Of a DNA stretch of 30,054 bases, positions 181 through 19,873 are shown in pieces. The DNA lies in IMG/VR virus record IMGVR_UViG_3300014492_000026, positions 1 through 30,054 of that record, one strand, 5' to 3'. How positions within the stretch are numbered: the first letter of the stretch is position 1; every line of letters starts with the position of its first letter. Under the pieces are notes generated by a model that saw only the letters and a list, made by a program, of their open reading frames with translations, ran no database searches and was not told the origin of the DNA. The translations under genes were made by a program, and so were the position numbers. The DNA is from a virus.

Positions 181-262
181 AGATGGCCCCTCTGATCATC
201 ATCATTATTGTATACCACGAGGGCGAGTTGCCATCGCTTAATGATGATGTATCTTACATAGA

Positions 263-298
263 AAAGCCGGCAAGGTGTGTTACACCACTGCCGGCTTT
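263..298 (-). terminator. Rho-independent terminator after the repeat-protein gene
   Basis: A perfect 10-bp stem (AAAGCCGGCA at 263-272 with TGCCGGCTTT at 289-298) encloses a second 5-bp stem (GGTGT/ACACC). Read leftward it ends in a short U run. It lies 20 bp past the stop of the minus-strand gene ending at 318. Confidence 0.7.
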
Positions 299-317
299 AA
301 TAAGTAGTTGTGTCAGA

Positions 318-1103: not shown

Positions 1104-1155
1104 TGATGCGATCCTTGTTGTTGCCCCCATAAGCACTATTGCCTGGGCAACGGGA

Positions 1156-1183
1156 TATATACATCGATTGCAACAGGTCGCAA
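1156..1183 (-). promoter_or_regulatory. Candidate sigma70 promoter for the repeat-protein gene
   Basis: Read leftward: TTGCGA (1183-1178), 16-nt spacer, TATATA (1161-1156), preceded by TG. It lies 50 bp upstream of the ATG at 1103. Confidence 0.5.
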
Positions 1184-1190
1184 GAGGGAT

Positions 1191-1922: not shown

Positions 1923-1954
1923 GATTTTCTCCCACTTTCCCATCGGAAAATAAA

Positions 1955-1983
1955 AGTATATATACCATTTTCCCGCATGTCAA
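1955..1983 (-). promoter_or_regulatory. Near-consensus sigma70 promoter
   Basis: Read leftward: TTGACA (1983-1978), exactly 17 nt, then TATACT (1960-1955), with TGGTATA overlapping the end of the spacer. The predicted transcript starts about 26 nt upstream of ATG 1922. Confidence 0.7.
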
Positions 1984-2002
1984 TGGGAGGATTTTTTGGT
2001 AC

Positions 2003-2932
2003 CTAACGGACCCATTCCCTTAAAACATTGAATGGAGCTTCGCCGGCATCTTTGTAGCCTTTCGGCAGTCTGCGTTTGATTATTTCTCTATCACGCAACA
2101 AACTACGAAGAAGAGTAACTACTCGTCTGTTACTATTCAGTGATGCGTCATTATCTAGTGCTACTATTACTCTACTAACTTCATTACAGAGGTCCATTAT
2201 GCGTTGTCTCTTAGGATCATTTATAGCCTTGCCAAGTAAGGCTATAGCTGAAACATCATCGTGCTCGGTTGCATCTACTATCTTAAGTGCATCCATAGGA
2301 CCTTCAACTATCACCATAGTACTACGTGGGCCGCGCGGGAGATAAATCATACCATCGCCAGACTCCTTACTCATTCTGTACTTAGGTTCAAGTGTGTCAG
2401 AAATATCCCTCCCGGTCCATGCTTCGACTGCATGTTGTTCAGGCAGTGGGAATAATAAACGCCATGCCCACTCGCCTCTCAAGGCGTATCTTAGATCGTA
2501 ACGCCGGATGGTATCATAAGCGTTGTCGAACCCCCGACGGTGCTTGAGGTAATCGACCATCCTGGAGTTGTCTGACGCCGCGCTAAACTTGTTCCACTCA
2601 GCTGTAATCAATACGCGTTGCTTCTCAGCCTGCGTAGAGCTTGCAGTACGGCGGCTTCCTGCCAATACACAACTGTTACGAAGTACGATTGCATGATCTC
2701 GACTGATACCCATTTCGGTTAACAGTCTGATTATGCTGGTGCCCGCGTGTCTGTCGTCTCTTAGACAATAGTAGGCTTCTTTTTCTTCGGACACCTTGAG
2801 ATGTCCGCTGTAGTCACTCGATCCACAGAACGGGCAGTTAATTGTTATGTTGTTACGGGATGTGTTCTTACCTCGATCGCGCCACTGCACATCAATAGTA
2901 TCAAACAGCTGCCGTACGTCAATAATAGCCAC
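2003..2932 (-). CDS. DNA primase, zinc-binding plus TOPRIM (phage primase)
   Basis: 309 aa, GTG start at 2932. The N-terminal zinc-binding domain shows CPFC at residues 33-36 and C56/H62 within YYCLRDDRHAG. The TOPRIM domain begins near residue 206 with VIVEGPMDALK (catalytic Glu about 210) and includes the DND triad at 260-262 and a later KDAGE. This order is that of DnaG-type and T7 gp4-like primases, which lay down RNA primers for lagging-strand replication. There is no helicase domain: the protein stops about 45 residues after DND. So a separate helicase, in the host or outside this window, is expected. The start lies 6 bp past the stop of the preceding gene (2939), so it is co-transcribed with it. 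Confidence 0.9.
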   Translation of the reverse strand: MAIIDVRQLFDTIDVQWRDRGKNTSRNNITINCPFCGSSDYSGHLKVSEEKEAYYCLRDDRHAGTSIIRLLTEMGISRDHAIVLRNSCVLAGSRRTASSTQAEKQRVLITAEWNKFSAASDNSRMVDYLKHRRGFDNAYDTIRRYDLRYALRGEWAWRLLFPLPEQHAVEAWTGRDISDTLEPKYRMSKESGDGMIYLPRGPRSTMVIVEGPMDALKIVDATEHDDVSAIALLGKAINDPKRQRIMDLCNEVSRVIVALDNDASLNSNRRVVTLLRSLLRDREIIKRRLPKGYKDAGEAPFNVLREWVR

Positions 2933-2938
2933 AGCAGA

Positions 2939-3622
2939 TCACTCTGGTTCGTGTGGCATGTATTGTCTGGCAAGTTTATATAAATGTTCAAGATCACGGA
3001 CAGCATCCTTACCATCTTTATTCGCTAATTCCAGTAGCAAAGGCAATCCGGACAGCATAGCATAATCAACCTCCTGATAAGTCGCGGGCCTTCCTCTTGC
3101 AAACCATTCAACAGATGACGGTTCGCTCATGCGGAATAAAACACCTCTATCTACTTCAGGTCGCCACACTTTATAGGCTGATACTGTCCACAAACAGACC
3201 ACGCCTGGGTTGCGTTTAATGCCAATGCCGGCTTGTACAGCCCCATCAGGCATTCCTTCTACTACCCGTTCTCTTTTAGGATCACTGAGAAATGGACATG
3301 CTTGAGCACTGTATCGCCCACATTCCAGGTGCGATGGCGGCTCTGATGATGTACGAGTGATAATACACATAGGACCTACTACGAAAGTCATGTATCTACC
3401 TAGTGGTTTGCCACACACCCAACACTGTTTTTTAGTGACACACTTTGCTAAGTATTCGGTGTTCATGACCCGAAACTCAGGGCGTCCATTGACCAAATCG
3501 ACAAATTTAGGGGTAGGGTACCCTCGGCTATCGACTGGCAAGTAGCTGATACGCACCGGAGTTTTTATTGCTGCCAGTCGTGCAATGACTGGGTTATTAT
3601 TGCTGTCGGACTCGTTGCTCAT
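2939..3622 (-). CDS. Conserved phage protein with Cys-rich putative zinc site
   Basis: 227 aa from ATG 3622, which overlaps the stop of the upstream gene as ATGA; a longer frame from 3697 is possible but would overlap more. The central part carries CWVCGKPLGRYMTFVVGPMC, then HLECGRYSAQACPFL: five Cys and a His that could bind zinc. This pattern recurs in hypothetical proteins of unrelated phages, and I know of no assigned function. It lies directly upstream of the primase with a 6-bp gap, so a role alongside replication is plausible but unproven. Confidence 0.8.
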   Translation of the reverse strand: MSNESDSNNNPVIARLAAIKTPVRISYLPVDSRGYPTPKFVDLVNGRPEFRVMNTEYLAKCVTKKQCWVCGKPLGRYMTFVVGPMCIITRTSSEPPSHLECGRYSAQACPFLSDPKRERVVEGMPDGAVQAGIGIKRNPGVVCLWTVSAYKVWRPEVDRGVLFRMSEPSSVEWFARGRPATYQEVDYAMLSGLPLLLELANKDGKDAVRDLEHLYKLARQYMPHEPE

Positions 3623-3819
3623 TTTCGGTGCCCCAGTTGATGTACCAGATTGCGGATAGTGGCGGCAGCATCGCGCATGTAGATCGCAAACATCCAACTA
3701 GTATGCATGGATGCGTAACTCTCCATGGCTTCGGCCAGCTTAAGCGGTGGCATCACAGGTAATGGTGATGTTGTAGTTTCCGGAAACAGAGTATGGTTTG
3801 GTATCTGCCGACGCTCCAT
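3619..3819 (-). CDS. Small hypothetical protein
   Basis: 66 aa, ATG 3819. It ends in an ATGA overlap with the next gene at 3622, the usual sign of translational coupling. The protein is Pro-rich at first (TSPLPVMPPLKL), then an amphipathic helix through YMRDAAATIRNLVHQL. No family recognised. Confidence 0.65.
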   Translation of the reverse strand: MERRQIPNHTLFPETTTSPLPVMPPLKLAEAMESYASMHTSWMFAIYMRDAAATIRNLVHQLGHRK

Positions 3820-3829
3820 AACACGATCC

Positions 3830-4123
3830 TTAGTGCTTGGTTATTGATCCTGTGTTATCTATTAGACTACTGGAGTCGTATCCCGATATGAACATCACTC
3901 GCGCTGCGTCTATGACCTCTTGTAAATCACATCCGGCTAATGTCGAAAAATCTATAGCAAGACGTGCCATAGATATTGCATTGTTGGTTACACATGATTG
4001 GCAGTCACATCGAGTAGTGACCTGTACGCAGTGATCGGTACCTTCTTTACCACTGCTAATCAATATCGCAGTTTCTCCTATGTGGCCTTTTGTGAGTACG
4101 GGAAACTTTAGTTTGTTCGGCAT
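3830..4123 (-). CDS. Small Cys-containing hypothetical protein
   Basis: 97 aa, ATG 4123, with GAAGGG about 9 nt upstream. Residues 38-44 read CDCQSC, with another Cys at about 32 and at 65, so a metal or redox site is possible. The remainder (AISMARLAIDFSTL, DLQEVIDAARVMF) is helical. It sits between the methyltransferase gene (13 bp) and the gene at 3819 (10 bp), so it is one operon with them. Function unknown. Confidence 0.7.
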   Translation of the reverse strand: MPNKLKFPVLTKGHIGETAILISSGKEGTDHCVQVTTRCDCQSCVTNNAISMARLAIDFSTLAGCDLQEVIDAARVMFISGYDSSSLIDNTGSITKH

Positions 4124-4136
4124 ATCATGAATCCCT

Positions 4137-5423
4137 TCAGACTGTTTTGCGTGGTTGCTTCTTGATAATTAACTCAGTAACTTGCACCTCATGCTGAGTT
4201 AATCGGTTTTTGATAGACTTAGCATAAGTCGCATTAAGCTCACACATGATACTGTTGCGGGCGCGTAGTCCAGCTGCTAGAGCAGTAGTACCATGCCCAC
4301 CGAACGGATCAAGCACGATACACGGTACAGGATCGCCAGCGTTGCATTTGCAACTAGGAGCCCATCCTGTCTGAGGACCTTTTCGTCTATCATTTTTGAT
4401 AGCTGGAGACGACCGCTCTATTACCCTTATCCACGGATCACCGCACTGAGCACAGCACCCACGCTCGCTAGTACCAGCAAGCAGACATAATGTCGGTAGT
4501 GCTTGGGGAAATACTGCTTGATGATCTCCTAGATAAGGCTCGAGTGGAATTTCCCATACATCCCGACGATTGGCCCCTTTTAATTCTTCGTATCGTCGCA
4601 TGCTTTGCCCGCGCTTACCGGCAAGTGGCCCCTTAGTGAAATCAGATGGAACTGTTACTTTACCTGTGTACCACCCAGGTTTTACTTCATCACGGATTGA
4701 TTCCTGATCGTAGTAGTATATTTGGGATTTAGTAAGATGAAACACATACTCATGAGCACATGTAGTGCGATCAGTAACACTATCTGGCGCCGGCCTAGGC
4801 TTAGCCCAAATGTTGTCTTGTCGTACCCACCATCCATCTTCTTGCAATGCTATAGCAAGACGGAACGGTACTAAGTGTTTATCTTTTGGCTTAAACACAA
4901 AAGACGGCTTTTCGTGATTCTCTAACACGCGGCGTTTCGGTTTCGCTGAGGTGCTAGTCGCAAATGAATCACCAATGTTTAGCCATAGCGTACCATCGTC
5001 CCTCAAAACACGACGCACTTCACGCATGACACCGACCATAACCTTTACGTAAGTATCTACAGTATTCTCAGCGCCAATCTGGCGATCATCGCAGGTCGCA
5101 CCACACCTAGGACAGACTCCAACGGCTTTTATCTTGTAGATGTGTTCATTGGCTATATGGGGTGCAGTGGTAGCGACAAGTGGAGGTACCCCGATCTGCA
5201 TCCGCTTACTGATGACGTGGTCGCATGATGGGTCGCCTCCTTCCCAAGTACCAGTTTCGTAGTCCCTAAGTTTGAAATAAGGTGGCGATGTTATGACACA
5301 GTGCACAGACTTATCTGGTAACCGCTGCAAAGTTTCCCGTACGTCACCTTCTAGTATAGCACAAGAACCACTCCACTCCATAAAGCCGCGCTTACGCAGC
5401 GGAGGAAACACAAGCCTATTCAT
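4137..5423 (-). CDS. DNA methyltransferase, N4-cytosine/N6-adenine type (TSPPY)
   Basis: 428 aa, ATG 5423. Motif IV is TSPPY at residues 45-49 and the SAM-binding motif I is DPFGGHGT at 372-379. This order (IV before I) is that of beta-class amino-methyltransferases. TSPPY is most often seen in N4-cytosine enzymes. Two insertions contain Cys pairs (CPRCGATC and CCAQC...CKCNAG) and probably bind zinc; such insertions are common in phage and prophage enzymes. No restriction endonuclease gene is next to it, so it is an orphan enzyme, likely protecting phage DNA from host restriction or marking it. A second methyltransferase of another type lies at 20158. Confidence 0.9.
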   Translation of the reverse strand: MNRLVFPPLRKRGFMEWSGSCAILEGDVRETLQRLPDKSVHCVITSPPYFKLRDYETGTWEGGDPSCDHVISKRMQIGVPPLVATTAPHIANEHIYKIKAVGVCPRCGATCDDRQIGAENTVDTYVKVMVGVMREVRRVLRDDGTLWLNIGDSFATSTSAKPKRRVLENHEKPSFVFKPKDKHLVPFRLAIALQEDGWWVRQDNIWAKPRPAPDSVTDRTTCAHEYVFHLTKSQIYYYDQESIRDEVKPGWYTGKVTVPSDFTKGPLAGKRGQSMRRYEELKGANRRDVWEIPLEPYLGDHQAVFPQALPTLCLLAGTSERGCCAQCGDPWIRVIERSSPAIKNDRRKGPQTGWAPSCKCNAGDPVPCIVLDPFGGHGTTALAAGLRARNSIMCELNATYAKSIKNRLTQHEVQVTELIIKKQPRKTV

Positions 5424-5468
5424 TCTGTTTTGCCCTTAGATTGCCAATTGGAAAGTGATCCATGTCAC

Positions 5469-5507
5469 GTTATATACCCCCACCGGCACACGGCTATGTA
5501 CCGGTGG
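5469..5507 (-). promoter_or_regulatory. Hairpin plus TATATA element upstream of the methyltransferase
   Basis: CCACCGG (5480-5486) and CCGGTGG (5501-5507) form a 7-bp stem directly upstream (leftward sense) of GGTATATAAC (5478-5469). The -10-like box has no good -35, and the stem occupies that position, so this could be an operator-controlled promoter or a weak attenuator of the gene ending at 5514. Confidence 0.35.
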
Positions 5508-5513
5508 TGGTTT

Positions 5514-6011
5514 TTAAGCTGCTTGGGCAATACGGACAACCCGGTTTAGCAGCTTAGAGGCATGGTAACCAGGGAGCGCCCGGTTTATCACAGTAGGCAC
5601 CATACTGATACTATCTAGTAAGGTGCGTGGTGCGAGTGGCCGGCTACGCTGATCCAGATAATCACACATACAATTAAACACCAGTCTAAGCACGGCTTGG
5701 TGCTCAATGCGCGTCAGATCAGCCCCACACCCACTACGAATGAAGTTGTCCATAGCCGCCAAAGCGTCTCGGCACCGCTTAATACCATACGATGTAGCGA
5801 AGACGTTAAGTGGTGGGATGTTGGAGACGCCACGACCTTTTAGCACCTGCACGATCACAGCCCAGCTTATTGTCTCATCTGCGCTGAAATCATGAGTAGT
5901 CGTGGCTCGCGGTTTATCAAACCGCATGCTTAGTAGCATGTAGAGATTACGAAGCTCGCCGTCATCCATACGGTTGATCAGCGCATCGCGAACTGTTAGT
6001 CGTATAGCCAT
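5514..6011 (-). CDS. Hypothetical phage protein
   Basis: 165 aa, ATG 6011. It overlaps the preceding helix-turn-helix gene by 16 bp. The protein is helical throughout with a conserved-looking C-terminal half (LDSISMVPTVINRALPGYHA). Cys residues at about 113 and 133-137 do not form a recognisable finger. No family assigned. Its position in one operon after a DNA-binding protein suggests an early role. Confidence 0.7.
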   Translation of the reverse strand: MAIRLTVRDALINRMDDGELRNLYMLLSMRFDKPRATTTHDFSADETISWAVIVQVLKGRGVSNIPPLNVFATSYGIKRCRDALAAMDNFIRSGCGADLTRIEHQAVLRLVFNCMCDYLDQRSRPLAPRTLLDSISMVPTVINRALPGYHASKLLNRVVRIAQAA

Positions 6012-6295
6012 CTGTGCACCAAATCGGGTCTGTACTGGTTAAGCCAATTCACCAAAGCTACCTCATCAAACCGTACTCTAGTAGTCTTGCCGTACCGAGC
6101 GACATTGGCCGTGAGCGGCTTGCGCTGCGGAGAGCCATCACGCCAGATCAACAGTGATCTACGCGTTATGCTCAACCGGCGGATGACTTCGGCGGTGGTG
6201 ACGGTTGCGCCAAGGCGGCGTTGACGGCTCGGACGCGATGCTTCTTTAACTGGGTAGGGCATCGCATTGATCTGATTAGTATTTACGTGTGACAT
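5996..6295 (-). CDS. MerR/excisionase-type helix-turn-helix protein
   Basis: 99 aa from ATG 6295; the alternative ATG 6313 leaves a leader of only about 10 nt from the promoter, and GAGGA precedes 6295 by 11 nt. The central segment VTTAEVIRRLSITRRSLLIW is a helix-turn-helix, followed by a basic wing (KTTRVRFDEVALVNWL). This arrangement is typical of MerR-like or excisionase-like small DNA-binding proteins (HTH_17 type). It may regulate early transcription. It is the first gene after the promoter at 6329-6357. Confidence 0.75.
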   Translation of the reverse strand: MSHVNTNQINAMPYPVKEASRPSRQRRLGATVTTAEVIRRLSITRRSLLIWRDGSPQRKPLTANVARYGKTTRVRFDEVALVNWLNQYRPDLVHRWLYD

Positions 6296-6328
6296 TTTAG
6301 TAAAGGTCCTCATTTTGTTCTATTAGGA

Positions 6329-6357
6329 GGTATATATACATCAGACTTGCCTGGACA
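6329..6357 (-). promoter_or_regulatory. Candidate promoter for the helix-turn-helix operon
   Basis: Read leftward: TGTCCA (6357-6352), 17 nt, TATACC (6334-6329) inside the longer run TGTATATATACC. Confidence 0.45.
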
Positions 6358-6396
6358 CTCCATAGGCAAGTGGTAACATTTTCGTGATCGGGCACC

Positions 6397-6684
6397 CTAC
6401 AGCCAAATCTCGACTATAGGATGTGGGTCGTTTATCTGCTTATCTATCCGAAACAGCCCGTGCGGAAGTAGATTACGAACACTGTTGATAGTGCTTGCTA
6501 ATATTACTATGTCGCACTTTCTGTAGTTTCCTTTGTTATCATGAGTCCATGGACGAGCCGCGTAATATTGAGGATAATCTGACGGGTGATCGTACACCAC
6601 CCATAGCATCAGTTTATTAGCCGCAGTCGCAGAGTTGTGGTACTCCTGCGCCTCTTGCTGTCGCTGAATGATGATATCACCCAT
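6397..6684 (-). CDS. Small hypothetical protein
   Basis: 95 aa, ATG 6684 directly abutting the stop (6685-6687) of the upstream gene. Visible elements are a Gln-rich N-terminus (QRQQEAQEYHN) and a beta-like core (LMLWVVYDHPSDYP, CDIVILASTINSVRNLL). Unknown function. It shares an operon with the gene at 6942. Confidence 0.65.
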   Translation of the reverse strand: MGDIIIQRQQEAQEYHNSATAANKLMLWVVYDHPSDYPQYYAARPWTHDNKGNYRKCDIVILASTINSVRNLLPHGLFRIDKQINDPHPIVEIWL

Positions 6685-6942
6685 TTATGTTAGATCCTTT
6701 TTAGCAATCCACTTCTGAACCTCACGCGCCACACGTAGGTATTCTGCGGAGGGGCGTTTATCAGTTTCTTGCCCAGGTCGGTAATTACGCCAGATATCAT
6801 CACGAAGACGCTTCGGTAACATAAACCAGTGTTCCTTACATCCCCACATGGCCGGCGGTACTTGCTGGCCGCACTTAGGCCAGTGGCAGGTGTGATTACC
6901 TGTCGTGGTCTGTTGCTTGACGTACTCAGCCTTGTTAACCAT
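6685..6942 (-). CDS. Small putative zinc-binding phage protein
   Basis: 85 aa, ATG 6942. Residues about 18-40 read TCHWPKCGQQVPPAMWGCKE followed by HWF: C-x4-C-x9-C-x2-H, a compact zinc site, then LPKRLRDDIWRNYRPGQE. This short Cys/His protein recurs in many proteobacterial phages without known function. The gene begins only about 10 nt after the predicted transcription start at 6960-6987, so its leader is very short and its Shine-Dalgarno weak. Confidence 0.8.
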   Translation of the reverse strand: MVNKAEYVKQQTTTGNHTCHWPKCGQQVPPAMWGCKEHWFMLPKRLRDDIWRNYRPGQETDKRPSAEYLRVAREVQKWIAKKDLT

Positions 6943-6959
6943 AACTTGCGGCTCTACCT

Positions 6960-6987
6960 ATTATATACATTACAACCTTATTACTAA
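6960..6987 (-). promoter_or_regulatory. Candidate sigma70 promoter
   Basis: Read leftward: TTAGTA (6987-6982), 16 nt, consensus TATAAT (6965-6960), preceded by TGTA. It overlaps the last codon of the gene ending at 6984. Confidence 0.55.
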
Positions 6988-7142
6988 GCAGTAGTTAAGT
7001 ACCGCCAAATGACACGGGCGTTTAAGCCTTTGTCATTAGCGCATCGAACTATCTCCACCCATGTCTGATCTTCTGGCACAGCTAGTTTCCATAGATGATA
7101 CTGGCCACCGGAGTCATACCAATGGATGTCAAAGCTATTCAC
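6984..7142 (-). CDS. Small hypothetical protein, GTG start
   Basis: 52 aa from GTG 7142. An in-frame ATG at 7166 lies at or before the transcription start predicted from 7169-7196, while GAGGAG sits 8 nt before the GTG, so the GTG is preferred. The protein is acidic and aromatic (FDIHWYDSGGQYHLWKLAVP) with a helical end (LNARVIWRYL). No family. Confidence 0.6.
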   Translation of the reverse strand: MNSFDIHWYDSGGQYHLWKLAVPEDQTWVEIVRCANDKGLNARVIWRYLTTA

Positions 7143-7168
7143 TGATCTTTCTCCTCGCCACGTCACTT

Positions 7169-7196
7169 TTTATATACCGATCAGTGAGTCATGCAA
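7169..7196 (-). promoter_or_regulatory. Candidate sigma70 promoter
   Basis: Read leftward: TTGCAT (7196-7191), 16 nt, TATAAA (7174-7169). It lies inside the end of the upstream DUF2493-like gene and serves the gene starting at 7142. Confidence 0.55.
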
Positions 7197-7694
7197 GGCT
7201 GAGCAATGTAAAGCTTCCCTTCGTTTTCTTGATTTGTTAGATTGACATAACCTGCACCGTGTTTCTGTCCGTAAGCGTCCCTTATGAGGATATTGGATTT
7301 GGTAGAGATACCGAACATGATGATCACAGTTCATGGTATGTCTCAGAGGCACACCAAATCTATTAGCGAGCTCGACCAGCTTTGTTGTACTGTGTGTGGG
7401 GTCTGGAGTGATTATAACCAGATCGGCCATAGTTACTCGCAATAACTGACTGTTTCGTACACGCCGCGCGTCTTTATCATATGTCGCCCAGTCTGGAGTG
7501 TGTACAGAAGTAGCTACATTATGGCGATTAGCCCATTTATCAGCTATCGCGTCGGTACCTGCCTCTCCTCCATGTACTAAGAGTGTGATCGGTCTTTTGC
7601 CATGCGTGAGGTCTAACATAGAGAACAGCCGCGTTGAGTTGTCAAACAGCAACCCGCCGCATACCAGCACAACATATTCGTTTGACTCAACCAT
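7170..7694 (-). CDS. DUF2493/YspA-type SLOG protein with C-terminal Cys motif
   Basis: 174 aa, ATG 7694. Residues about 8-115 match the DUF2493 (cpYpsA-related SLOG) pattern: VLVCGGLLFDNSTRLFSMLD, then LLVHGGEAGTDAIADKWA, a DW motif and RNSQLLRV. SLOG domains have a Rossmann-like fold and bind nucleotide-type ligands; many act as sensors or nucleotide hydrolases. An extra C-terminal 50 residues contains CDHH and CRLCQSNKSRKRREALHC, a possible zinc site not usual in the family. Its phage role is unknown; nucleotide sensing or counter-defence is inference only. Confidence 0.85.
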   Translation of the reverse strand: MVESNEYVVLVCGGLLFDNSTRLFSMLDLTHGKRPITLLVHGGEAGTDAIADKWANRHNVATSVHTPDWATYDKDARRVRNSQLLRVTMADLVIITPDPTHSTTKLVELANRFGVPLRHTMNCDHHVRYLYQIQYPHKGRLRTETRCRLCQSNKSRKRREALHCSALHDSLIGI

Positions 7695-7788
7695 TGTGTA
7701 TTATCCTTACTTAGCATCAACTAAGAAGCCGGATGATGGATCATCGCCGCAAGTTTCACGTCGGTGTTGGGGACACTGTTGAAGTTCA

Positions 7789-8169
7789 TCAGTTGCTCTC
7801 CTCCCAAATCTCAACGCCATGGTTAAACCCTTCCTGCCAGCGGTCGGCATCCATACCGGGAGGAAACGGGTTATCGCCCATGCCATCGTTCGCGGCGGCG
7901 TTGCAGTAAGCTAAGCCTACTGCAACGCCGAGAGCATACGCGCCATCGACATCAGGGTACTTTGTCATTGCTGTCTTGAACGCATCCAATGCCGCCCTAC
8001 TGCCGTCGCTGTCATGGCAACACATTATATGGTTTTGCGCGATATTGCGCCACCGTTCGGCCGCTTCAACAAGCGTCCGAAGTCTTACGCCCTTACTGAA
8101 CCGGATCGGCCCGCAAATCACTTCACATGGCAGCGGTGTGTCCATCGGATCGTTAACACGTTTGCGCAT
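7789..8169 (-). CDS. Hypothetical protein
   Basis: 126 aa, ATG 8169, preceded by an ideal GGAGGTGAT. The protein contains ICGPIRFSKGVRL, a helix WRNIAQNHIMCCHDSDGS, and ends DADRWQEGFNHGVEIW, a pattern resembling the ribosome-modulation-type WxxGxxxG tail of small phage proteins. No function assigned. The 93-bp gap before the next gene downstream holds nothing I can identify. Confidence 0.75.
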   Translation of the reverse strand: MRKRVNDPMDTPLPCEVICGPIRFSKGVRLRTLVEAAERWRNIAQNHIMCCHDSDGSRAALDAFKTAMTKYPDVDGAYALGVAVGLAYCNAAANDGMGDNPFPPGMDADRWQEGFNHGVEIWEESN

Positions 8170-8324
8170 TTTATCACCTCCTTACTATAAGCTTCAGCAT
8201 CTGTCACACTCATGAACGTCTGCACCGTCGCGCCAGGGTGGCTCTCCATCAGCAACGCGACGCGCTCCGGGCTTGGCGTGACCGGAGCACAAGCGATGTG
8301 CCAGCAGACCAGGTAGATTATCAC
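8118..8324 (-). CDS. Small hypothetical protein overlapping its neighbour
   Basis: 68 aa from GTG 8324, which overlaps the preceding stop as GTGA. It overlaps the next gene (ATG 8169) by 52 bp. The N-terminus MIIYLVCWHIACAPVTPSPE is hydrophobic, followed by an ordinary soluble-looking stretch (VQTFMSVTDAEAYSKEVI). The strong Shine-Dalgarno of the next gene lies inside its codons for KEVI. The GTGA junction is the best argument that it is real. Confidence 0.5.
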   Translation of the reverse strand: MIIYLVCWHIACAPVTPSPERVALLMESHPGATVQTFMSVTDAEAYSKEVIKCANVLTIRWTHRCHVK

Positions 8325-8608
8325 GGTACCGCGTCCCCCTCCACAGCAGCTGGAGGATCATCCTTCTGGCGTTCGACAGCAGCACCGAGCGGTCGCAGAG
8401 CGATATTGATATTCATCAGAGCGACGCCGTTGATCTCCAAAAGGTATCCCTGGTCGCGTTTATCAGGGTGGCCCGTCTTTTTCATCGAAGCATATCGGGC
8501 CATAAGGGAACGGCGCTGTTTGAGCAAGCCGTCCCGCCATGCCAACAGCGTGTTCAGGTAGTATGCCCGCGTCCGGGTGGTTTGAATCTGTGCATGATCG
8601 TGTTTCAT
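8321..8608 (-). CDS. Hypothetical protein, helical
   Basis: 95 aa, ATG 8608, overlapping the upstream stop as ATGA. It looks helical and possibly coiled-coil (YYLNTLLAWRDGLLKQRRSL), then ends acidic (DDPPAAVEGDAVP). No family. It belongs to the coupled series 9934 to 7789. Confidence 0.65.
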   Translation of the reverse strand: MKHDHAQIQTTRTRAYYLNTLLAWRDGLLKQRRSLMARYASMKKTGHPDKRDQGYLLEINGVALMNINIALRPLGAAVERQKDDPPAAVEGDAVP

Positions 8609-9249
8609 AGCAACACCCCTTCGTTGTCAGACACACCTGCTCCAATCGGCGTGTCTCCCCGTCCTTCCGCCGCTGCGTCGTCGATATCAGCGTCGTCCAT
8701 CCCGAGTTCCAGCAGACACGCTTTGGCTTCCGCCAGAGCCCTGCCGCCGTCTCCGATATTGCCCCAATACGGGTGCATCGGTTCTAAGCGAGTGCGTGAT
8801 GACTTCAGCGACCGCAGCACGTGATAGCAGCGCCTGAGTGCATTTTGGCAGTGGCGCATAGAGTCGCCGTCTGCATCGTCGGATAGCGCATCGTTCACTG
8901 CAATGAAGCGGGCATGTGACCGTTCCCTCATCTGCCTCCATTGCAAGGAGAACTGTCTGAGTTCCTCATCCGACCACGCTGATGGACGGCGCACCACGAA
9001 ATAGTTCGTCTGGGCGCGACGGCCGGGGTCGAGGCCGCGATCAAGGTGCAACTTGCCGATGTAGTGTTGCAGCTCGCGGCAGGATATCTCCAGGGAGCTG
9101 TCAACGCCCATCAACAATACATCGTCCGGTTTCTGAACCGAAAGGCTGTTGGCGATGCCGGACGCCCTGTCGAGAAGGGGCGCGGCAGCCTGGATCAGAT
9201 CAAGCAGCAGAGTCAGTTGGTCGTCTCGGGTTGGGGTTTCCTCGCTCAC
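8605..9249 (-). CDS. Hypothetical helical protein, GTG start
   Basis: 214 aa from GTG 9249. A longer in-frame ATG at 9429 would overlap the upstream gene by more than 170 bp, whereas GAGGAG lies 7 nt before the GTG, overlapping the upstream stop. The protein is all-helical in appearance: QLTLLLDLIQAAAPLLDRAS, CRELQHYIGKLHLDRGL, FSLQWRQMRERSHARFIAVN, ending in an acidic tail (DDADIDDAAAEGRGD). Function unknown. Confidence 0.65.
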   Translation of the reverse strand: MSEETPTRDDQLTLLLDLIQAAAPLLDRASGIANSLSVQKPDDVLLMGVDSSLEISCRELQHYIGKLHLDRGLDPGRRAQTNYFVVRRPSAWSDEELRQFSLQWRQMRERSHARFIAVNDALSDDADGDSMRHCQNALRRCYHVLRSLKSSRTRLEPMHPYWGNIGDGGRALAEAKACLLELGMDDADIDDAAAEGRGDTPIGAGVSDNEGVLL

Positions 9250-9253
9250 TTTC

Positions 9254-9532
9254 TTACTCCTCGTTGGGGGGTGTCGGAATATGCATAGCGCACAAGGGAG
9301 CAGCGACGGAACCGCTGATTGCCTCCATAATACTTTCATATCGCTTACCACCTCGCCAGATGCCATGCCGACTCTTGATCCGGCCATTGACGAATGCAGT
9401 GAGGTCGTGGATGCTGGTAGACGTGTCACCTTGGACCATCACTAGTGCATCCGCGAGCGAGTCAAAGTCGTATCGCCAGTTGTCGTATGCATGCGCGGCG
9501 CTTACGCGATAGACGACATGATCACTGGCCAT
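9254..9532 (-). CDS. Hypothetical protein
   Basis: 92 aa, ATG 9532, overlapping the upstream gene by 11 bp. The sequence VVYRVSAAHAYDNWRYDFDS suggests a beta-rich start. The end, PTPPNEE, provides the Shine-Dalgarno GAGGAG of the next gene. No family recognised. Confidence 0.6.
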   Translation of the reverse strand: MASDHVVYRVSAAHAYDNWRYDFDSLADALVMVQGDTSTSIHDLTAFVNGRIKSRHGIWRGGKRYESIMEAISGSVAAPLCAMHIPTPPNEE

Positions 9533-9716
9533 AGGGGATCACCGGGCCGATGTAATGCTCACGCAATTTCCGCACGATCTCAACACAGGCATTCCAGAGT
9601 TCGCGATCTGGAACGTCCAGAACAAATTGGTCCGGGCAATAGACGGGAAACCCGTGATTGGTCAGGATTTGCGCCACTATTTTCGCAGCTTCGGCATCAT
9701 CCAGCATTACCATCAT
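9522..9716 (-). CDS. Small hypothetical protein
   Basis: 64 aa, ATG 9716 overlapping the preceding stop as ATGA; a second in-frame ATG at 9707 has AGGA at 8 nt. An N-terminal acidic helix (LDDAEAAKIVAQILTNHGF) is followed by VYCPDQFVLDVPDRE and a helix (LWNACVEIVRKL). Function unknown. Confidence 0.6.
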   Translation of the reverse strand: MMVMLDDAEAAKIVAQILTNHGFPVYCPDQFVLDVPDRELWNACVEIVRKLREHYIGPVIPYGQ

Positions 9717-9934
9717 CCTATCATTCTTTTGCTAAGAAACATTGCATAATCTATTGCGGCTCTGATGTCCGGAAACATAGGACCTATTGAGTGGAAGCTG
9801 TCAACGCGAAAGCGCTTACTTTCACCTTCCATGTCTACTAAGTATTCAATAGTGACTCCAGTACGACTGGTCATTGCTACCTGAGCAAGCCAATTGATTC
9901 TTTCTTCATCTGTATAGTGATTTATGTGGGGCAT
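9713..9934 (-). CDS. Small hypothetical protein, first gene of the leftward series
   Basis: 73 aa from ATG 9934 (or 9937): GGAGG occupies 9940-9944. The frame extends to 10051, but that part lies upstream of the promoter at 9957-9986. The protein begins MPHINHYTDEERINWLAQVA and carries a beta-like middle (VTIEYLVDMEGESKRFRVDS). Four successive junctions downstream are 4-bp or short overlaps, so this promoter probably drives genes down to 7789. Confidence 0.65.
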   Translation of the reverse strand: MPHINHYTDEERINWLAQVAMTSRTGVTIEYLVDMEGESKRFRVDSFHSIGPMFPDIRAAIDYAMFLSKRMIG

Positions 9935-9956
9935 CATAACCTCCGCGATACTTACC

Positions 9957-9986
9957 ATAATAGTGTATATACCAATCGCGCGTAAA
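9957..9986 (-). promoter_or_regulatory. Candidate promoter of the 9934-7789 operon
   Basis: Read leftward: TTTACG (9986-9981), 18 nt, TATTAT (9962-9957). The spacer contains TTGGTATATACAC, so an extended -10 (TGGTATATA) is the alternative. Confidence 0.45.
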
Positions 9987-10054
9987 TCACGACCTAAGTG
10001 ATAGCACGATGCCGATACATAGTATCGCGCGCACAGAACTCTGGCATACAACTT

Positions 10055-10711
10055 CTGTAGGGATATTCCTATCCAGTGGTAGTAGTACAGTCCGCTTTGC
10101 GGGATGACGCGGATGCTTAGCTACGGCTTCGCTTCGCTTGCCTACTAAGCATCCACATCATCTTATCCACATAATTTTTTAGTAATCTTGTGAAAGGCTC
10201 GCATGGCCTGAAAGGCCATGTCCGATCAATATGTATCAAGCGAGGGCGATAGCCCGAAGCGTAGATGCATATTGATCGCATAGACTACTGGTTACGATTA
10301 TAAGGTGATATCCAGTGGATAAGCATACCTTTCCCGGACTAAGGGAAAAATACGATCTATAGGTAACTAAAACCCTATGGAGCATACTGCAATCGAGGCT
10401 TTCACCGGGCGGGGTCTCTCCTAGTCGCCCGTCGTTATTGCATATAATATGGAATACGCTACCTCGGCCTTCATCATCATGATAAGTGACAGTTCGCGCC
10501 AGAGACTATTGCAGCAATCCTGGCGCTGTCCCGGCTGTGGTTTATCACAGAGCCGGCCTGCTGATCGAGTGCTTTTTGCCCATTACGGACGCAGCTCTAC
10601 CCTATCAGCTTGTAATCTGCATAAGCACTGTGTCGGGCGGGCACGAGTGCCGGCTTTGTTTACCGGAGTTTTCCTCGTGCGAAGCGATATGGCCAACATA
10701 ATGTGCCTGCA
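10055..10711 (-). ncRNA. Candidate large structured non-coding RNA
   Basis: No minus-strand frame of useful length crosses this stretch, yet it is packed with short inverted repeats. They include 10111-10120/10145-10154 (10 bp), 10202-10209/10213-10220 (8 bp, GAA loop), 10224-10233/10268-10277 (10 bp, enclosing GGGC-GATA-GCCC), 10330-10335/10343-10348, 10388-10393/10437-10442 (enclosing 10406-10411/10426-10431), 10496-10502/10520-10526 (7 bp, extended by GACA/TGTC) and 10531-10536/10551-10556. A near-consensus promoter at 10718-10746 points into it, giving a transcript of about 650 nt. Phages carry large ornate RNAs such as GOLLD and ROOL; I cannot match this one to either. No U-run terminator was found at the left end. 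Strand is inferred from the promoter. Confidence 0.45.
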
Positions 10712-10717
10712 TCATGG

Positions 10718-10746
10718 TATATACCGGGCGGGAAATTTTTTGTCAA
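10718..10746 (-). promoter_or_regulatory. Strong leftward sigma70 promoter
   Basis: Read leftward: TTGACA (10746-10741), exactly 17 nt, TATATA (10723-10718) in the palindrome GGTATATACC. With 1955-1983 it is the best promoter match in the window. There is no downstream coding frame, so it probably makes the structured RNA. Confidence 0.65.
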
Positions 10747-10770
10747 CCCCCCAAAAAAAAACGGTTGACA
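10741..10770 (+). promoter_or_regulatory. Inverted repeat between divergent promoters, putative operator
   Basis: TGTCAACC (10741-10748) and GGTTGACA (10763-10770) form a perfect 8-bp inverted repeat with a 14-nt spacer containing nine A. Each arm contains a TTGACA -35 box facing outward, so a protein bound here would affect both promoters. Confidence 0.5.
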
Positions 10771-10796
10771 TGGCGCCAGGGCCATGCAATTATACA
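10765..10796 (+). promoter_or_regulatory. Rightward promoter of a short RNA unit (weak spacing)
   Basis: TTGACA (10765-10770) is followed by TTATAC or TATACA at 10790-10796, a spacer of 19-20 nt, longer than ideal. The spacer holds the dyad ATGGC...GCCAT (10770-10774/10781-10785). Transcription would reach the terminator at 10844-10885 and give an RNA of roughly 85 nt. Confidence 0.35.
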
Positions 10797-10843
10797 TTGG
10801 CTAGTGGCCTGAAATGTGTGCTTGCAGCCTGTTTCGGGAACCT

Positions 10844-10885
10844 GACCGTCTGCTAAGCATTACGATTAGCAGACGGTCTTTTTTT
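10844..10885 (+). terminator. Strong rho-independent terminator
   Basis: GACCGTCTGCTAA (10844-10856) pairs perfectly with TTAGCAGACGGTC (10866-10878) over 13 bp, with a 9-nt loop and seven T after it. No credible protein gene precedes it, so it probably ends a small RNA. Confidence 0.9.
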
Positions 10886-10909
10886 GTCCTGGTCAGCTTT
10901 GACCTGATC

Positions 10910-10957
10910 GACATGGCGCTAGCCATACTGCCAGTCGTACTGCCAGTCGTACTGGCA
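10910..10957 (+). repeat. Dyad plus 12-bp tandem repeats upstream of the late promoter
   Basis: GACATGGCGC at 10910-10919 repeats 10767-10776 exactly, and both copies continue into a GCCAT arm. Then ACTGCCAGTCGT occurs twice head to tail (10927-10938, 10939-10950). The second copy forms the palindrome TGCCAGT-CGT-ACTGGCA (10941-10957). The layout suggests repeated binding sites for one regulator. Confidence 0.6.
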
Positions 10958-11016
10958 TTTAATCATGAACGTATTGTGAACAACTAGAGAACAAATTGGG
11001 ATCAAGCCCACCAGGC

Positions 11017-11047
11017 TTGACGCGCGGCAACTACCACGCCATATATA
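11017..11047 (+). promoter_or_regulatory. Candidate late-operon promoter
   Basis: TTGACG (11017-11022), 17 nt, CATATA (11040-11045), with TATATA overlapping at 11042-11047 (spacer 19). It gives a leader of about 110 nt before the NusG-like gene. Confidence 0.5.
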
Positions 11048-11086
11048 CTGCCCAGATCATACGACCGTGGCAGGCGCTCCGATCTC

Positions 11087-11110
11087 GGTAGTCGCAATGC
11101 GGTAGCCGTG
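11087..11110 (+). promoter_or_regulatory. ops-like element in the leader of the NusG/RfaH-like gene
   Basis: GCGGTAGC at 11099-11106 followed by CGTG resembles the E. coli ops core GGCGGTAGCGTG with one extra C. A second GGTAG lies at 11087-11091, recalling the paired GGTAG units of JUMPstart leaders. The location, between a promoter and a NusG-family gene, is where RfaH-type recruitment would act. Function is inference. Confidence 0.4.
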
Positions 11111-11164
11111 GGAACAACTCAGTGGCTTCGTACTCCATCAGTCTTTGCTTAAAGTAACACGAAG

Positions 11165-11647
11165 ATGGCACGCCTCTGGTATGTCGTGCATACTTACGGA
11201 GGCAAGGAGTTCGACGCTAATATCAATATATTACGACAAGGATTTGACGTAGTAGTTCCTGTTGAGCTAAGGCTGATAAAGCGGCAACGTCCGCGGTACA
11301 AACCACTTTTCCAGAACTACATCTTCGTTATATTTGATGTATTGGTTGATCCATGGCAGCCGATTATGCACACTTACGGAGTTCGGCGTGTGCTTTGTTA
11401 TGCCCCCGGACGTCCACAAGCGATAGATACCAAGTTTGTAGAATCGCTGATTCAACACAGTATTCCGGTACCTGGCGCAAAGCGCTTAGTAAATATTGGA
11501 TGCACTGCGGTTGTTAAGCGAGGACACTTAGTAAATCGTGAAGGCATATGCAGCTGGCGCGACGGCGATCGTGTTAAGTTGCTGATGCATGTCATGAGTA
11601 ATGAGGTTGAAGTAGAATTTGACATTGCAGATGTGGCGCCGGTATAA
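11165..11647 (+). CDS. NusG/RfaH-like transcription antiterminator
   Basis: 160 aa, ATG 11165. Residues 5-11 (WYVVHTY) and KPLFQNYIFVIFDVL (about 46-60) are the hallmark strands of the NusG N-terminal domain, which binds RNA polymerase. YGVRRVLCYAPGRPQ follows as in NusG/RfaH. The C-terminal 45 residues (VKRGHLVNREGICSW, then VKLLMHVMSNEVEVEFDIAD) have the shape of a KOW domain. This is probably a specialised paralog that lets RNA polymerase read through terminators in the long rightward operon. It is the first gene of that operon, and its leader carries an ops-like sequence. High confidence in the family, moderate in the role. Confidence 0.9.
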   Translation: MARLWYVVHTYGGKEFDANINILRQGFDVVVPVELRLIKRQRPRYKPLFQNYIFVIFDVLVDPWQPIMHTYGVRRVLCYAPGRPQAIDTKFVESLIQHSIPVPGAKRLVNIGCTAVVKRGHLVNREGICSWRDGDRVKLLMHVMSNEVEVEFDIADVAPV

Positions 11648-11683
11648 TACCTCTTGCTGATGCAAAGCGAAAGGTAATATCCC

Positions 11684-11944
11684 ATGACTACCACAGTTCA
11701 CATTTCCATTCCGCATGTGGCGGACGACCGTCGCATCATCGTAGTGGTGCGCCGCAGCACTAGCATATTGTCCGAAGGGACATCGTATGGTGAGGTCGTG
11801 CTCAACACCGACCTTAAATCGTACACTAACCACAGTTACTATGTTTGGGAAGGCTCTGAAATCGTGGTTAGGGAAGTCGCTAGAATGGAGGCCAAAGAAC
11901 CGGATAATCCTGCGAATACGAACGCTGCTGGTTCAGAAGCATGA
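11684..11944 (+). CDS. Small hypothetical protein
   Basis: 86 aa, ATG 11684 with AAAGG upstream. A beta-rich body (VHISIPHVADDRRIIVVVRR, HSYYVWEGSEIVVREV) and a polar, disordered-looking tail (DNPANTNAAGSEA). No family recognised. Confidence 0.7.
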   Translation: MTTTVHISIPHVADDRRIIVVVRRSTSILSEGTSYGEVVLNTDLKSYTNHSYYVWEGSEIVVREVARMEAKEPDNPANTNAAGSEA

Positions 11945-11960
11945 TGATGGTATTTGTCCT

Positions 11961-12164
11961 ATGAGCAACGCAAAGGTTGGGAATACTATCAACGCCTACA
12001 TGGCGGCTCCACTGTTCAACGAGAACGAGCGGGCGTTCAATGTGGCATTGGCAAATGGGATCGCGCAACATGCAGACGTGTTCCTGCCGCAACGCGACGG
12101 GTCACTGCTAGTCAACATACTGAGAGAGGGTGTTGCGCTAGAGGTGGTAGAGGTCACTCAATGA
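11961..12164 (+). CDS. Nucleoside 2-deoxyribosyltransferase-like, N-terminal half only
   Basis: 67 aa, ATG 11961. The sequence NAYMAAPLFNENERAFNVAL followed by HADVFLPQRDG matches the first half of nucleoside 2-deoxyribosyltransferases (normally about 140-160 aa), which exchange bases between deoxynucleosides. The second half, which carries the catalytic Glu and most substrate contacts, is absent. The frame closes at TGA 12164 in an ATGA overlap with the next gene. It is either a degraded gene or a minimal domain with another use; catalytic activity is unlikely. The Shine-Dalgarno is weak. Confidence 0.75.
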   Translation: MSNAKVGNTINAYMAAPLFNENERAFNVALANGIAQHADVFLPQRDGSLLVNILREGVALEVVEVTQ

Positions 12165-12514
12165 TCGGCTTTCTAAAGTTAGCATTATTCGGATCACAGC
12201 ACGCACATAAACAGCGGGTGGTGCCTAAGCCGTCTGTTGATTTACCAGAATCAACAGCCGTCACCGACGCTGAGCGGATGGACTACGCTTTGCTTATTAT
12301 TAAAAGGTGTTTACCTAGTCTTGTGGAAGCAGCCGGCGCTATGCGCGCAACATCAGGTATTCCACAAAAAGCGGTCACTGGCTTTATTAGTACAGCGATG
12401 GACTATCTGTCAGATGCTGCGGATATCCTGGAAATGACACTACAAAAACAAAGGTATGGAGAAGACAACAATGTCGATCAATCGCCCTTCTACAAAGGTT
12501 GGGAAGATCACTGA
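12161..12514 (+). CDS. Hypothetical phage protein
   Basis: 117 aa, ATG 12161, overlapping the preceding stop as ATGA. A hydrophobic start (MIGFLKLALFGSQH) is followed by a helical body: ERMDYALLIIKRCLPSLVEA, GFISTAMDYLSDAADILEM. The C-terminal 20 residues overlap the start region of the next gene. Function unknown. Confidence 0.7.
   Translation: MIGFLKLALFGSQHAHKQRVVPKPSVDLPESTAVTDAERMDYALLIIKRCLPSLVEAAGAMRATSGIPQKAVTGFISTAMDYLSDAADILEMTLQKQRYGEDNNVDQSPFYKGWEDH
12437..12478 (+). repeat. 42-bp direct repeat, copy 1 (second copy 12683-12724)
   Basis: The 42 bp from acactacaaaaacaaagg to gtcgat recur without mismatch 246 bp later. Each copy contains a GGAG Shine-Dalgarno, an ATG and the codons for MS, so a whole translation-initiation region has been duplicated. 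Confidence 0.95.
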
Positions 12515-12682: not shown

Positions 12683-12724
12683 ACACTACAAAAACAAAGG
12701 TATGGAGAAGACAACAATGTCGAT
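12683..12724 (+). repeat. 42-bp direct repeat, copy 2
   Basis: Identical to 12437-12478. It supplies the Shine-Dalgarno and start codon for the 38-aa frame at 12717. Confidence 0.95.
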
Positions 12725-17321: not shown

Positions 17322-17564
17322 ATGAGTGGGGACAACAAAAGACCTAAGTACAGCGGTAACGCTATCGATGATACTCGGGCCGGTCCGTTGGACGACATCA
17401 CCATCTGCTATCACGCGGCCAAGCCGAACTGGTGCAAGCTGAAGGGCCTGGACATCAGGGCGGTCCATCCATCCGAGGGCGGCGGCTTCATGATCAGGCG
17501 AGATCAGGCCGAAGCGATCATCGCGTTGCTGCAACTTCCTGGGGTCAACGAACATGGCAACTGA
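17322..17564 (+). CDS. Small protein with PKYSGNAIDDT N-terminus (copy 1)
   Basis: 80 aa, ATG 17322, AGAGGA upstream. Residues 8-18 are PKYSGNAIDDT, encoded by a 34-bp stretch repeated in the next gene. The rest (ITICYHAAKPNWCKLKGLDI, MIRRDQAEAIIALLQL) is unlike the neighbour. Unknown function. It overlaps the next gene by 11 bp. Confidence 0.65.
   Translation: MSGDNKRPKYSGNAIDDTRAGPLDDITICYHAAKPNWCKLKGLDIRAVHPSEGGGFMIRRDQAEAIIALLQLPGVNEHGN
17342..17375 (+). repeat. 34-bp direct repeat, copy 1 (second copy 17571-17604)
   Basis: The 34 bp beginning acctaagtacagcggtaacg are identical in both places, and both are read in the same frame as PKYSGNAIDDT near the N-terminus of two adjacent genes. 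Confidence 0.95.
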
Positions 17565-17967
17565 CAAAATACCTAAGTACAGCGGTAACGCTATCGATGA
17601 TACTTTAATCGTGGTCACTGTATATCAGTCGATTGAGAACGGCCTTCGGAGTAGTACTGTTAATTTTAGTTGTTCGGAATGGATGCGTTTTCGATATCCT
17701 GGCTTTATGGTTGAGTTGATCATTAATAAGGAGTTGTCCGGTTTGGGAATCAATATTGACACACCACTACTTGATAATGATCCAAAGCTCACTTATATCC
17801 TGCGCGAGATATCAGCACTGCGGCGCTTCGGCAGTCTGACGGATGATGGTAAGGCTACGCTGCGTACACTCGAAACTATGTTGGAACGTGTGTGCCAGCT
17901 TCGATATGTGTCGCATTCTGATAAACCGGACGAGCTGGTACCTATTACTGAATCTGGATCGAAATGA
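17554..17967 (+). CDS. Hypothetical protein with PKYSGNAIDDT N-terminus (copy 2)
   Basis: 137 aa, ATG 17554. After MATDKI the same PKYSGNAIDDT as its neighbour, then an unrelated body: VVTVYQSIENGLRSSTVNFS, a beta-like MRFRYPGFMVELIIN, and a helical end (LRTLETMLERVCQLRYV). Function unknown. It ends in an ATGA overlap with the broken frame at 17964. Confidence 0.7.
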   Translation: MATDKIPKYSGNAIDDTLIVVTVYQSIENGLRSSTVNFSCSEWMRFRYPGFMVELIINKELSGLGINIDTPLLDNDPKLTYILREISALRRFGSLTDDGKATLRTLETMLERVCQLRYVSHSDKPDELVPITESGSK

Positions 17968-18131
17968 TCACTCGTCGTGGATTGATTGGCAGCATGCTCG
18001 TGGCACCGGCAATCATACGCCAGGGCGTATGATTGCCGCTTGGGGTGTTTGGCCCGACCCGTACCGTGCTGCCTTCCGGCTGGCCTGCTGATCTGGTGGA
18101 TGCTGACGGATTTATTACCATCATCTGGTAG
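17964..18131 (+). pseudogene. Broken small gene with twin-arginine-like start
   Basis: ATG 17964 overlaps the previous stop (ATGA) and encodes MITRRGLIGSMLVAPAIIRQ before TGA at 18030. The same frame then stays open for 32 codons (LPLGVFGPTRTVLPSGWPAD..., ending at TAG 18131) with coding-like composition. TRRG plus a hydrophobic AP-ending segment resembles short twin-arginine proteins seen in phage genomes. The stop lies in the right arm of a 14-bp perfect hairpin, which may mark the event that broke it. Alternatively only the 22-aa peptide is made. Confidence 0.45.
18007..18038 (+). other. Perfect 14-bp hairpin inside the broken gene
   Basis: CGGCAATCATACGC (18007-18020) and GCGTATGATTGCCG (18025-18038) pair without mismatch around a CAGG loop. 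No T run follows, so it is not a standard terminator. It could be an RNA signal or the trace of an inverted duplication. Confidence 0.8.
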
Positions 18132-18191
18132 TGAGTTCATCTTTAAGGGATTGCAGAAGAACATTCAGGAGATCAGATCGCTGGAAGGCGT
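18125..18191 (+). repeat. 67-bp duplicated fragment of terL (66/67 identical)
   Basis: These bases match 18776-18842 inside the terminase large subunit gene with one silent difference (TTC versus TTT). The fragment would encode GSEFIFKGLQKNIQEIRSLE plus GV. It lies 340 bp upstream of terL, outside any credible gene. Confidence 0.95.
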
Positions 18192-18465: not shown

Positions 18466-19764
18466 ATGTCGGCCGCCCAGACCGTCGGAGTAGAGTTTCC
18501 GCGCATCAATGCTCAGCTTCCTGGGTCGTTGCTGTTTCTGCTTCAACCAAAGCGGTACAAAGTTCTATACGGTGGCCGCGGTGGAATGAAGTCTTGGTCA
18601 ATGGCACGCGCCTTGACTATTCAAGCGCATCATACTAAGCAGCTTATCCTTTGCACGCGCGAGTTCCAGAATAGTATCGCTGATTCAGTACATCGCGTAA
18701 TCCGACGCCAGATCACTCTCTTAGGGATTAATCAGTGGTTTGAAGTTGAGAAAGCGAGTATCCGATCGCGGGTTACTGGTAGTGAGTTTATCTTTAAGGG
18801 ATTGCAGAAGAACATTCAGGAGATCAGATCGCTGGAAGGCGTAACTCGCACTTGGGTTGAGGAAGCGCAATCGACTTCAGAGGACAGCTGGATATACTTA
18901 GAACCGACAGTGCTTCGCGAACCTGGCGCGGAACTTTGGGCGAGCTTTAATCCGGTTGATTCGACAGACCCAACTTATCAGAGATTTATTGTTAAGCCGC
19001 CAGGACCTGATCGTGCGACTATTCTGAAAGTGGGATGGCAGGACAACTTTTGGTTCCCGCCCGAGCTTGAAGAACTTAGGAGGCACGCACTTAGAACTGA
19101 TCCGGAGCGGTACGATTGGGTATGGGAAGGGTTCTGTCGCAAAGTTAGTGAAGCGGCGGTTTTTCGCAATCGCTTCACTGTTGAAGGCTTTGAAGAGCCG
19201 GAAGTTGTAGATCGCTACTATTACGGCGCCGACTGGGGCTTTGCGAATGACCCGAGTGTATTGATTCGTTCTTACATACACAACGACACGCTATTCATTA
19301 CACATGAAGCGTATGCGGTGGGTGTGGAGATTGATGACTTGCCTGCATTATTTGCGGGTGGCAGAGCGATAAAGACCGGTATCGAATATCCTGGCGTGCC
19401 GGGTGCGAAAGACTGGCCTATTAAAGCTGACAGCTCGCGGCCTGAGACAATCAGTTATATAGCGCGTCGCGGCTTTGCTATATCTGCGGCAGAGAAGTGG
19501 CCGGGATCAGTTGAGGATGGGATTCAGCACCTTAAAGGCTTCAAGCAGATTGTGATCCATGAGCGCTGTGTGAATACTGCTCAGGAGTTTCGCTTGTATA
19601 GTTACAAGGTCGATCCTAGGACGCTGAACCCGGAAACTGGCCTTCCTGTTGTACTACCTAAACTTGAAGACAGGAACAATCACTCAATTGATGCCGCGCG
19701 ATATGCCTTAGATGGTTATATCCAGAAGCGGGGCGGAGTCGGAATATGGGCGAAGCTGATTTGA
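18466..19764 (+). CDS. Terminase large subunit
   Basis: 432 aa, ATG 18466. Walker A is GGRGGMKS at residues 36-43, Walker B with catalytic Glu is TWVEEA at 129-134, and the C-terminal RNase-H-like nuclease shows D256 (YYGADWGF), D322 (KADSSRPE) and D409 (NNHSIDAARYAL). This is the PBSX/Terminase_3 type of packaging ATPase-nuclease, which translocates and cuts phage DNA at the portal. Length is normal. The start is preceded only by a weak Shine-Dalgarno. A 67-bp piece of this gene (18776-18842) is duplicated upstream. Confidence 0.95.
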   Translation: MSAAQTVGVEFPRINAQLPGSLLFLLQPKRYKVLYGGRGGMKSWSMARALTIQAHHTKQLILCTREFQNSIADSVHRVIRRQITLLGINQWFEVEKASIRSRVTGSEFIFKGLQKNIQEIRSLEGVTRTWVEEAQSTSEDSWIYLEPTVLREPGAELWASFNPVDSTDPTYQRFIVKPPGPDRATILKVGWQDNFWFPPELEELRRHALRTDPERYDWVWEGFCRKVSEAAVFRNRFTVEGFEEPEVVDRYYYGADWGFANDPSVLIRSYIHNDTLFITHEAYAVGVEIDDLPALFAGGRAIKTGIEYPGVPGAKDWPIKADSSRPETISYIARRGFAISAAEKWPGSVEDGIQHLKGFKQIVIHERCVNTAQEFRLYSYKVDPRTLNPETGLPVVLPKLEDRNNHSIDAARYALDGYIQKRGGVGIWAKLI

Positions 19765-19790: not shown

Positions 19791-19873
19791 TTTGCATAAG
19801 ACAAGGATGCCTCATATGCCTGACCCGAAGTTACTTTTGCATAAGACAAGGATGCCTCATATGCCTGACCCGA
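19791..19873 (+). repeat. 38-bp tandem repeat with start signals (offset 45)
   Basis: tttgcataagacaaggatgc... through gacccga (19791-19828) recurs exactly at 19836-19873. Each copy contains AAGG and ATG codons. The 45-bp offset keeps the frame, so MPHMPDP is encoded twice. Confidence 0.95.

Follow-up and report, generated by a model that had tools for sequence, protein, structure and literature searches.

The virus record examined here, referred to as the window (30,054 bases), belongs to a tailed phage, as indicated by the genes for terminase, portal and Mu F-like proteins on its right arm. Judging from IMG contig numbers, it probably comes from peat or soil. Clear genes lie on the minus strand to the left of ~9.9 kb and on the plus strand to the right of 11.165 kb, and the left arm includes a primase-like Toprim gene within the window. 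A further contig (G001), near-identical to positions 1-9018 of the window (99.96%), adds 19.4 kb to this left arm, with nearly all proteins on the minus strand. It encodes RNR, RecA, gp32-like, DnaB-type helicase, SbcCD-like and 875-aa DNA-polymerase-like proteins, and its left-arm extension also contains tRNA-His and tRNA-Cys. The segment under study sits between this leftward replication arm, an operon that continues for at least 19 kb past the window, and a rightward arm made up of an RfaH/NusG-like gene and structural genes (Table 1). The ATG of the first leftward gene (9937/9934, minus strand) is preceded by GGAGG, and no homologue of its product was found in the IMG/VR scan. Cumulative GC skew is lowest at 9-11 kb; divergent genes alone could also produce such a minimum, so the skew is confounded as a sign of an origin. 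Near-identical contigs end at 9018 or begin at 12144 or later and none of them spans the segment, so even single changes within it are unreadable. Since near-identical contigs from other samples skip the interval 9018-12144, it may vary between phages or resist assembly.

Table 1. Features of the divergent region and of the first gene on each side (window coordinates)
Feature	Position	Strand	Evidence or remark
First gene of the leftward arm, 74 aa, function unassigned	9713..9937	-	open reading frame
Untranslated segment left of the leftward promoter-like site, ~770 nt to the first gene	9938..10711	-	end points inferred
Hairpin A, 18-19 pairs, loop holds GCGAAGCGAAGC	10103..10162	-	-37.1 kcal/mol, z -9.2
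AT-rich stretch, 25% GC over 40 nt	10155..10196	either	among the three lowest-GC places in the window
Perfect DnaA box TTATCCACA	10163..10171	+	sole perfect box in the window; between hairpins A and B
Hairpin B, 8 bp, loop of 3 (GAA)	10202..10220	either	inverted repeat and folding
Hairpin C, 15-16 pairs	10223..10278	either	slightly better fold on plus
DnaA-like box TTATCCACT, 8/9, opposite orientation	10314..10322	-	sequence match
7-bp GCGCCAG/CTGGCGC hairpin	10496..10526	-	z -2.4 for 10490-10565
Hairpin close to the putative leader's 5' end, outer stem GCACGAG (7 bp)	10641..10680	-	z -3.1 (10640-10690)
Leftward promoter-like site TTGACA-N17-TATATA	10718..10746	-	10/12 match
Rightward promoter-like site TTGACA-N17-AATTAT, TG before the second hexamer	10765..10793	+	back to back with the leftward site
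Intrinsic terminator, 13-bp stem, loop of 9, then 7 T	10844..10886	+	between the rightward promoter-like site and the RfaH-like gene
RfaH/NusG-like elongation factor, first gene of the rightward arm	11165..11647	+	Pfam NusG 1.2e-14

The best NCBIfam model for the product of the first rightward gene is RfaH (4.4e-17), with a score of 62.5 bits that lies below the cut-off of 144.5. The same holds for all four RfaH-like proteins tested, which were closest to RfaH and fell under its curated cut-off. RfaH/NusG-like proteins were also found in the phage contigs L004, L006, L039 and L022-L037, and three of these contigs (L004, L006 and L039) have the gene immediately upstream of those for terminase.

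Coding preference is absent from all frames on both strands of 9938-11164, which bears out an earlier claim, made in a sequence-only reading of this DNA, that ~650 bp here hold no minus-strand frame. Two plus-strand frames of 135 and 71 aa were considered as hidden proteins and rejected, their scores being at background level. Compared with shuffled sequence, the segment as a whole folds well on either strand (z -7.2 on minus, -5.4 on plus). This excess comes almost entirely from three hairpins packed into 180 nt, where it is equal on both strands (10101-10280, z -7.0 on minus and -7.2 on plus), and the folding of the remaining 437 nt (10281-10717) shows a mild preference for the minus strand (z -3.0 against -1.5). 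The sequence-only reading had counted eleven inverted repeats over 650 bp; the listed stems do exist, but they do not exceed chance uniformly, being strong in 10101-10280 and weaker in the rest. Genome-wide, inverted repeats of at least 9 bp are frequent (21 vs ~8 in shuffles).

Two of the stems proposed earlier turned out to be longer than described. The 10-bp stem at 10111-10154 extends to 18 pairs over the full length of hairpin A, and that at 10224-10277 (hairpin C) has 11 exact base pairs, or 15 positions with one mismatch. The 8-bp stem with its three-base loop (hairpin B) and the 7-bp GCGCCAG stem were both found as proposed. Hairpins B and C jointly reach z -5.7, and the nested stems at 10386-10445 reach z -1.4, with 20 of 200 shuffles folding equally well. 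Hints of strand conflict with one another: two G-U pairs of hairpin A form only in the minus reading, while hairpin C closes its mismatch on plus. The loop of hairpin A (10127-10136) is complementary to that of hairpin C (10255-10264); a kissing contact could be drawn between them, but complementarity of such length is expected by chance, and the contact was not retained. Loop A also contains GCGAAGC mini-hairpins, which we take to resemble elements reported for single-strand phage origins; a literature search gave no direct support for this likeness. In the loop of hairpin C (10237-10262) lies GCGAGGGCGATAGCCCGA, which a pattern scan found again in seven otherwise dissimilar viral contigs. 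Some of these share longer flanks (e.g. GAAGCGTAGCGAGGGCGATAGCCCGA), and the element reads as a dispersed palindromic motif. The scan was of no use for tracing relatives of the segment, as the seven contigs mostly have the loop motif alone in common.

The leftward promoter-like site had been described as near-perfect. It is present and aimed into the segment, but it matches at 10 of 12 positions, its second hexamer lacking the final T, and the window holds five sites of at least 10/12 where 5.3 are expected from shuffles. The site is supported more by its surroundings than by its match score. A second TTGACA site, facing right, lies back to back with it at a distance of 18 bp. This rightward site was absent from the sequence-only reading, as were the terminator at 10844-10886 and the AT-rich DnaA box. 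Stronger sigma70-like sites were observed elsewhere, one of 12/12 at the 3' end of the gene for the RfaH-like protein (11619-11648, plus) and one of 11/12 in the left arm (1983-1955, minus). The terminator escaped the terminator scan because the loop limit of the scan was 8 and its own loop is 9. It would yield an ~87-nt RNA unless read through, and is a possible attenuator. On the other side, no leftward intrinsic terminator was found between the segment and the ribosome-binding site of the first leftward gene, so the simplest predicted transcript is an untranslated leader of ~770 nt.

Several features of the segment recall DnaA-dependent origins. The DnaA boxes are one perfect and one 8/9 match, the perfect box has an AT-rich candidate unwinding element of 25% GC over 40 nt beside it, the GC-skew minimum falls here, and replication genes adjoin. 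A DnaA box lay within such an AT-rich 40-mer in 4 of 1500 shuffles (0.27%), a test that, like the others of origin features, was picked after inspection of the sequence. In contrast to DnaA-dependent origins, the segment has only two boxes, with no iterons and no repeat array. DnaA is often dispensed with by phages that encode a polymerase and a helicase of their own. A further point against an origin comes from a phage with related terminase and RfaH-like genes (G003, 112.8 kb), in which leftward and rightward genes are separated by only ~125 bp, without such a segment. Elsewhere that genome showed no structured gap of similar size, and no perfect DnaA box was found in the parts of it that were checked.

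Taken together, the leading reading, which we hold tentatively and as somewhat short of probable, is that the region controls both divergent arms and probably includes a replication origin activated by transcription. Two back-to-back promoters would drive the leftward replication arm and the rightward arm, and the leftward transcript would first cross ~770 nt of untranslated sequence. Near the far end of this leader, the three strong hairpins flank the AT-rich DnaA box. This part would act as the replication origin, which host DnaA would open with the help of leftward transcription. The hairpins may serve as single-strand priming or binding structures; they fold strongly on either strand, also when treated as DNA, which fits an element acting at the DNA level. 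If this is correct, the phage carries its own replication genes and yet starts replication at a DnaA box within a transcribed, hairpin-rich leader.

The alternatives are not fully exclusive of this reading, as a leader that contains an origin is still a leader. It is doubtful that the region acts as a long cis-acting RNA, in which folding of the ~770-nt leftward leader would regulate the replication operon at the level of elongation or of translation. Such a leader could, for example, load the RfaH-like protein of the phage itself or another elongation factor, and the rightward leader with its terminator would be the matching switch for the rightward arm. The RfaH-like gene is adjacent and recurs upstream of terminase in related contigs, a strong terminator stands between the rightward promoter-like site and this gene, and the 5' two thirds of the putative leader fold better on minus than on plus. 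As in RfaH/ops control, an RfaH-like gene here neighbours long operons with long untranslated leaders. The ops core octamer is also present on minus at 10456 (GGTAGCGT), and GCGGTAGC occurs on plus at 11099. However, with one mismatch allowed, no copy of the complete ops consensus occurs in the segment, and matches with two mismatches are about as numerous as expected by chance (10, with 8.6 expected). The case differs from RfaH/ops control in this respect and in that the protein scores under the RfaH model cut-off. Moreover, no conserved leader was found among the relatives, and no leftward terminator was found on which an antiterminator could act.

The sequence-only reading had proposed a large ornate RNA. 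What remains of that proposal is a non-coding segment that is structured beyond chance and has a promoter-like site pointing into it; most of its structure sits in 180 nt and is equally strong there on both strands, and the rest folds somewhat better on minus. The large phage RNAs described so far include GOLLD and ROOL (PMC12286853), and the segment resembles them in being phage-encoded, non-coding, several hundred nt long and rich in stems. It differs in that its structure is packed into 180 nt, that the tRNAs are ~10 kb distant here and not adjacent, and that it has no covariance-model match. An Rfam covariance search of the segment gave no match at the gathering score or at E<=5, which confirms the earlier statement that it matches neither GOLLD nor ROOL. 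A parallel may be seen in ICP1, where RNA-seq revealed a highly expressed, unclassified transcript of ~800 nt in a 1-kb ORF-less space (PMC7567579). Both lie in ORF-less phage space of ~1 kb with no adjoining tRNA and belong to no known family, but the ICP1 transcript was detected by RNA-seq whereas the segment is known from DNA. As the ICP1 RNA exists outside GOLLD and ROOL, a further kind of large phage RNA is not implausible.

A stand-alone large structured RNA of this kind, which would start at the leftward promoter and be cut free by processing, is on balance unlikely for the segment. Its size, its non-coding status, the total folding on minus and the two minus-only G-U pairs of hairpin A agree with such an RNA, as do the ICP1 precedent and a structured non-coding segment of 670 nt in a related phage (L004). 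The concentration of structure in 180 nt, the same on both strands, the better fold of hairpin C on plus, and the lack of a terminator and of an Rfam match argue against it. In addition, no homologue was found in the data searched, and hence no covariation. A DNA similarity search among phages and plasmids gave nothing meaningful. IMG/VR scans with the RfaH-like, terminase, methylase, Toprim and first leftward proteins returned only near-identical contigs and distant phages, genome scans by the RfaH-like protein and by terminase alignment gave nothing useful, and no diverged homologue of the segment was found among the phages, plasmids and IMG/VR scans. At present the segment thus appears as a single, sequence-unique region. 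If it does encode an RNA, this would join the small number of very large RNAs known from phages.

Ordinary intergenic DNA, in which three hairpins without joint function (e.g. small palindromic elements) lie beside a normal promoter, is quite unlikely, because a non-coding gap of ~1.2 kb is costly for a phage genome and a position between divergent arms together with an AT-rich box is unlikely to be random, even though much of the remaining segment folds near background, long inverted repeats are common in this genome and the loop motif of hairpin C recurs in dissimilar contigs as a dispersed palindromic element would.

Besides the 112.8-kb phage, related terminase and RfaH-like genes are found in L004 and L039. 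In L039, small genes lie upstream of the RfaH-like gene. The 670-nt segment in L004 (259-928) contains several strong hairpins next to one another (plus-strand z -4.3), has no Rfam match and represents another possible large phage RNA. Homology between the two segments was considered on the basis of a shared 10-mer, CTGGATAGGA, at both 3' ends and rejected, as local alignment was no better than that of shuffles. At the level reached, the segment appears not to be conserved within its phage group. It is improbable, though it may be entertained, that the two are cousins, analogous in structure but unrelated in sequence, and that the segment stands for a hitherto undescribed class of large structured RNAs (~650-770 nt), unrelated to GOLLD and ROOL and placed between the arms of RfaH-encoding phages.

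Further along L004, a Ro60/TROVE gene was observed at 2042-3691 (TROVE 7e-23, vWA_Ro60 4e-41). It is preceded by YrlA-like RNAs (RF02553) at 1909-1969 (E 3e-6) and 1533-1600 (E 0.05), both below the curated score, and 1533-3691 as a whole reads as a phage-borne Rsr/Y-RNA module. Within the window, Ala/Thr/Pro-rich internal repeats were seen at 527-695, inside the leftward protein at 318-1136. Near-exact short duplications occur at 12437-12478 and 12683-12724, at 17335-17375 and 17564-17604, and at 19791-19828 and 19836-19873. Another such pair, 18125-18191 and 18776-18842, is a 67-bp part of the terminase gene copied upstream of terminase.
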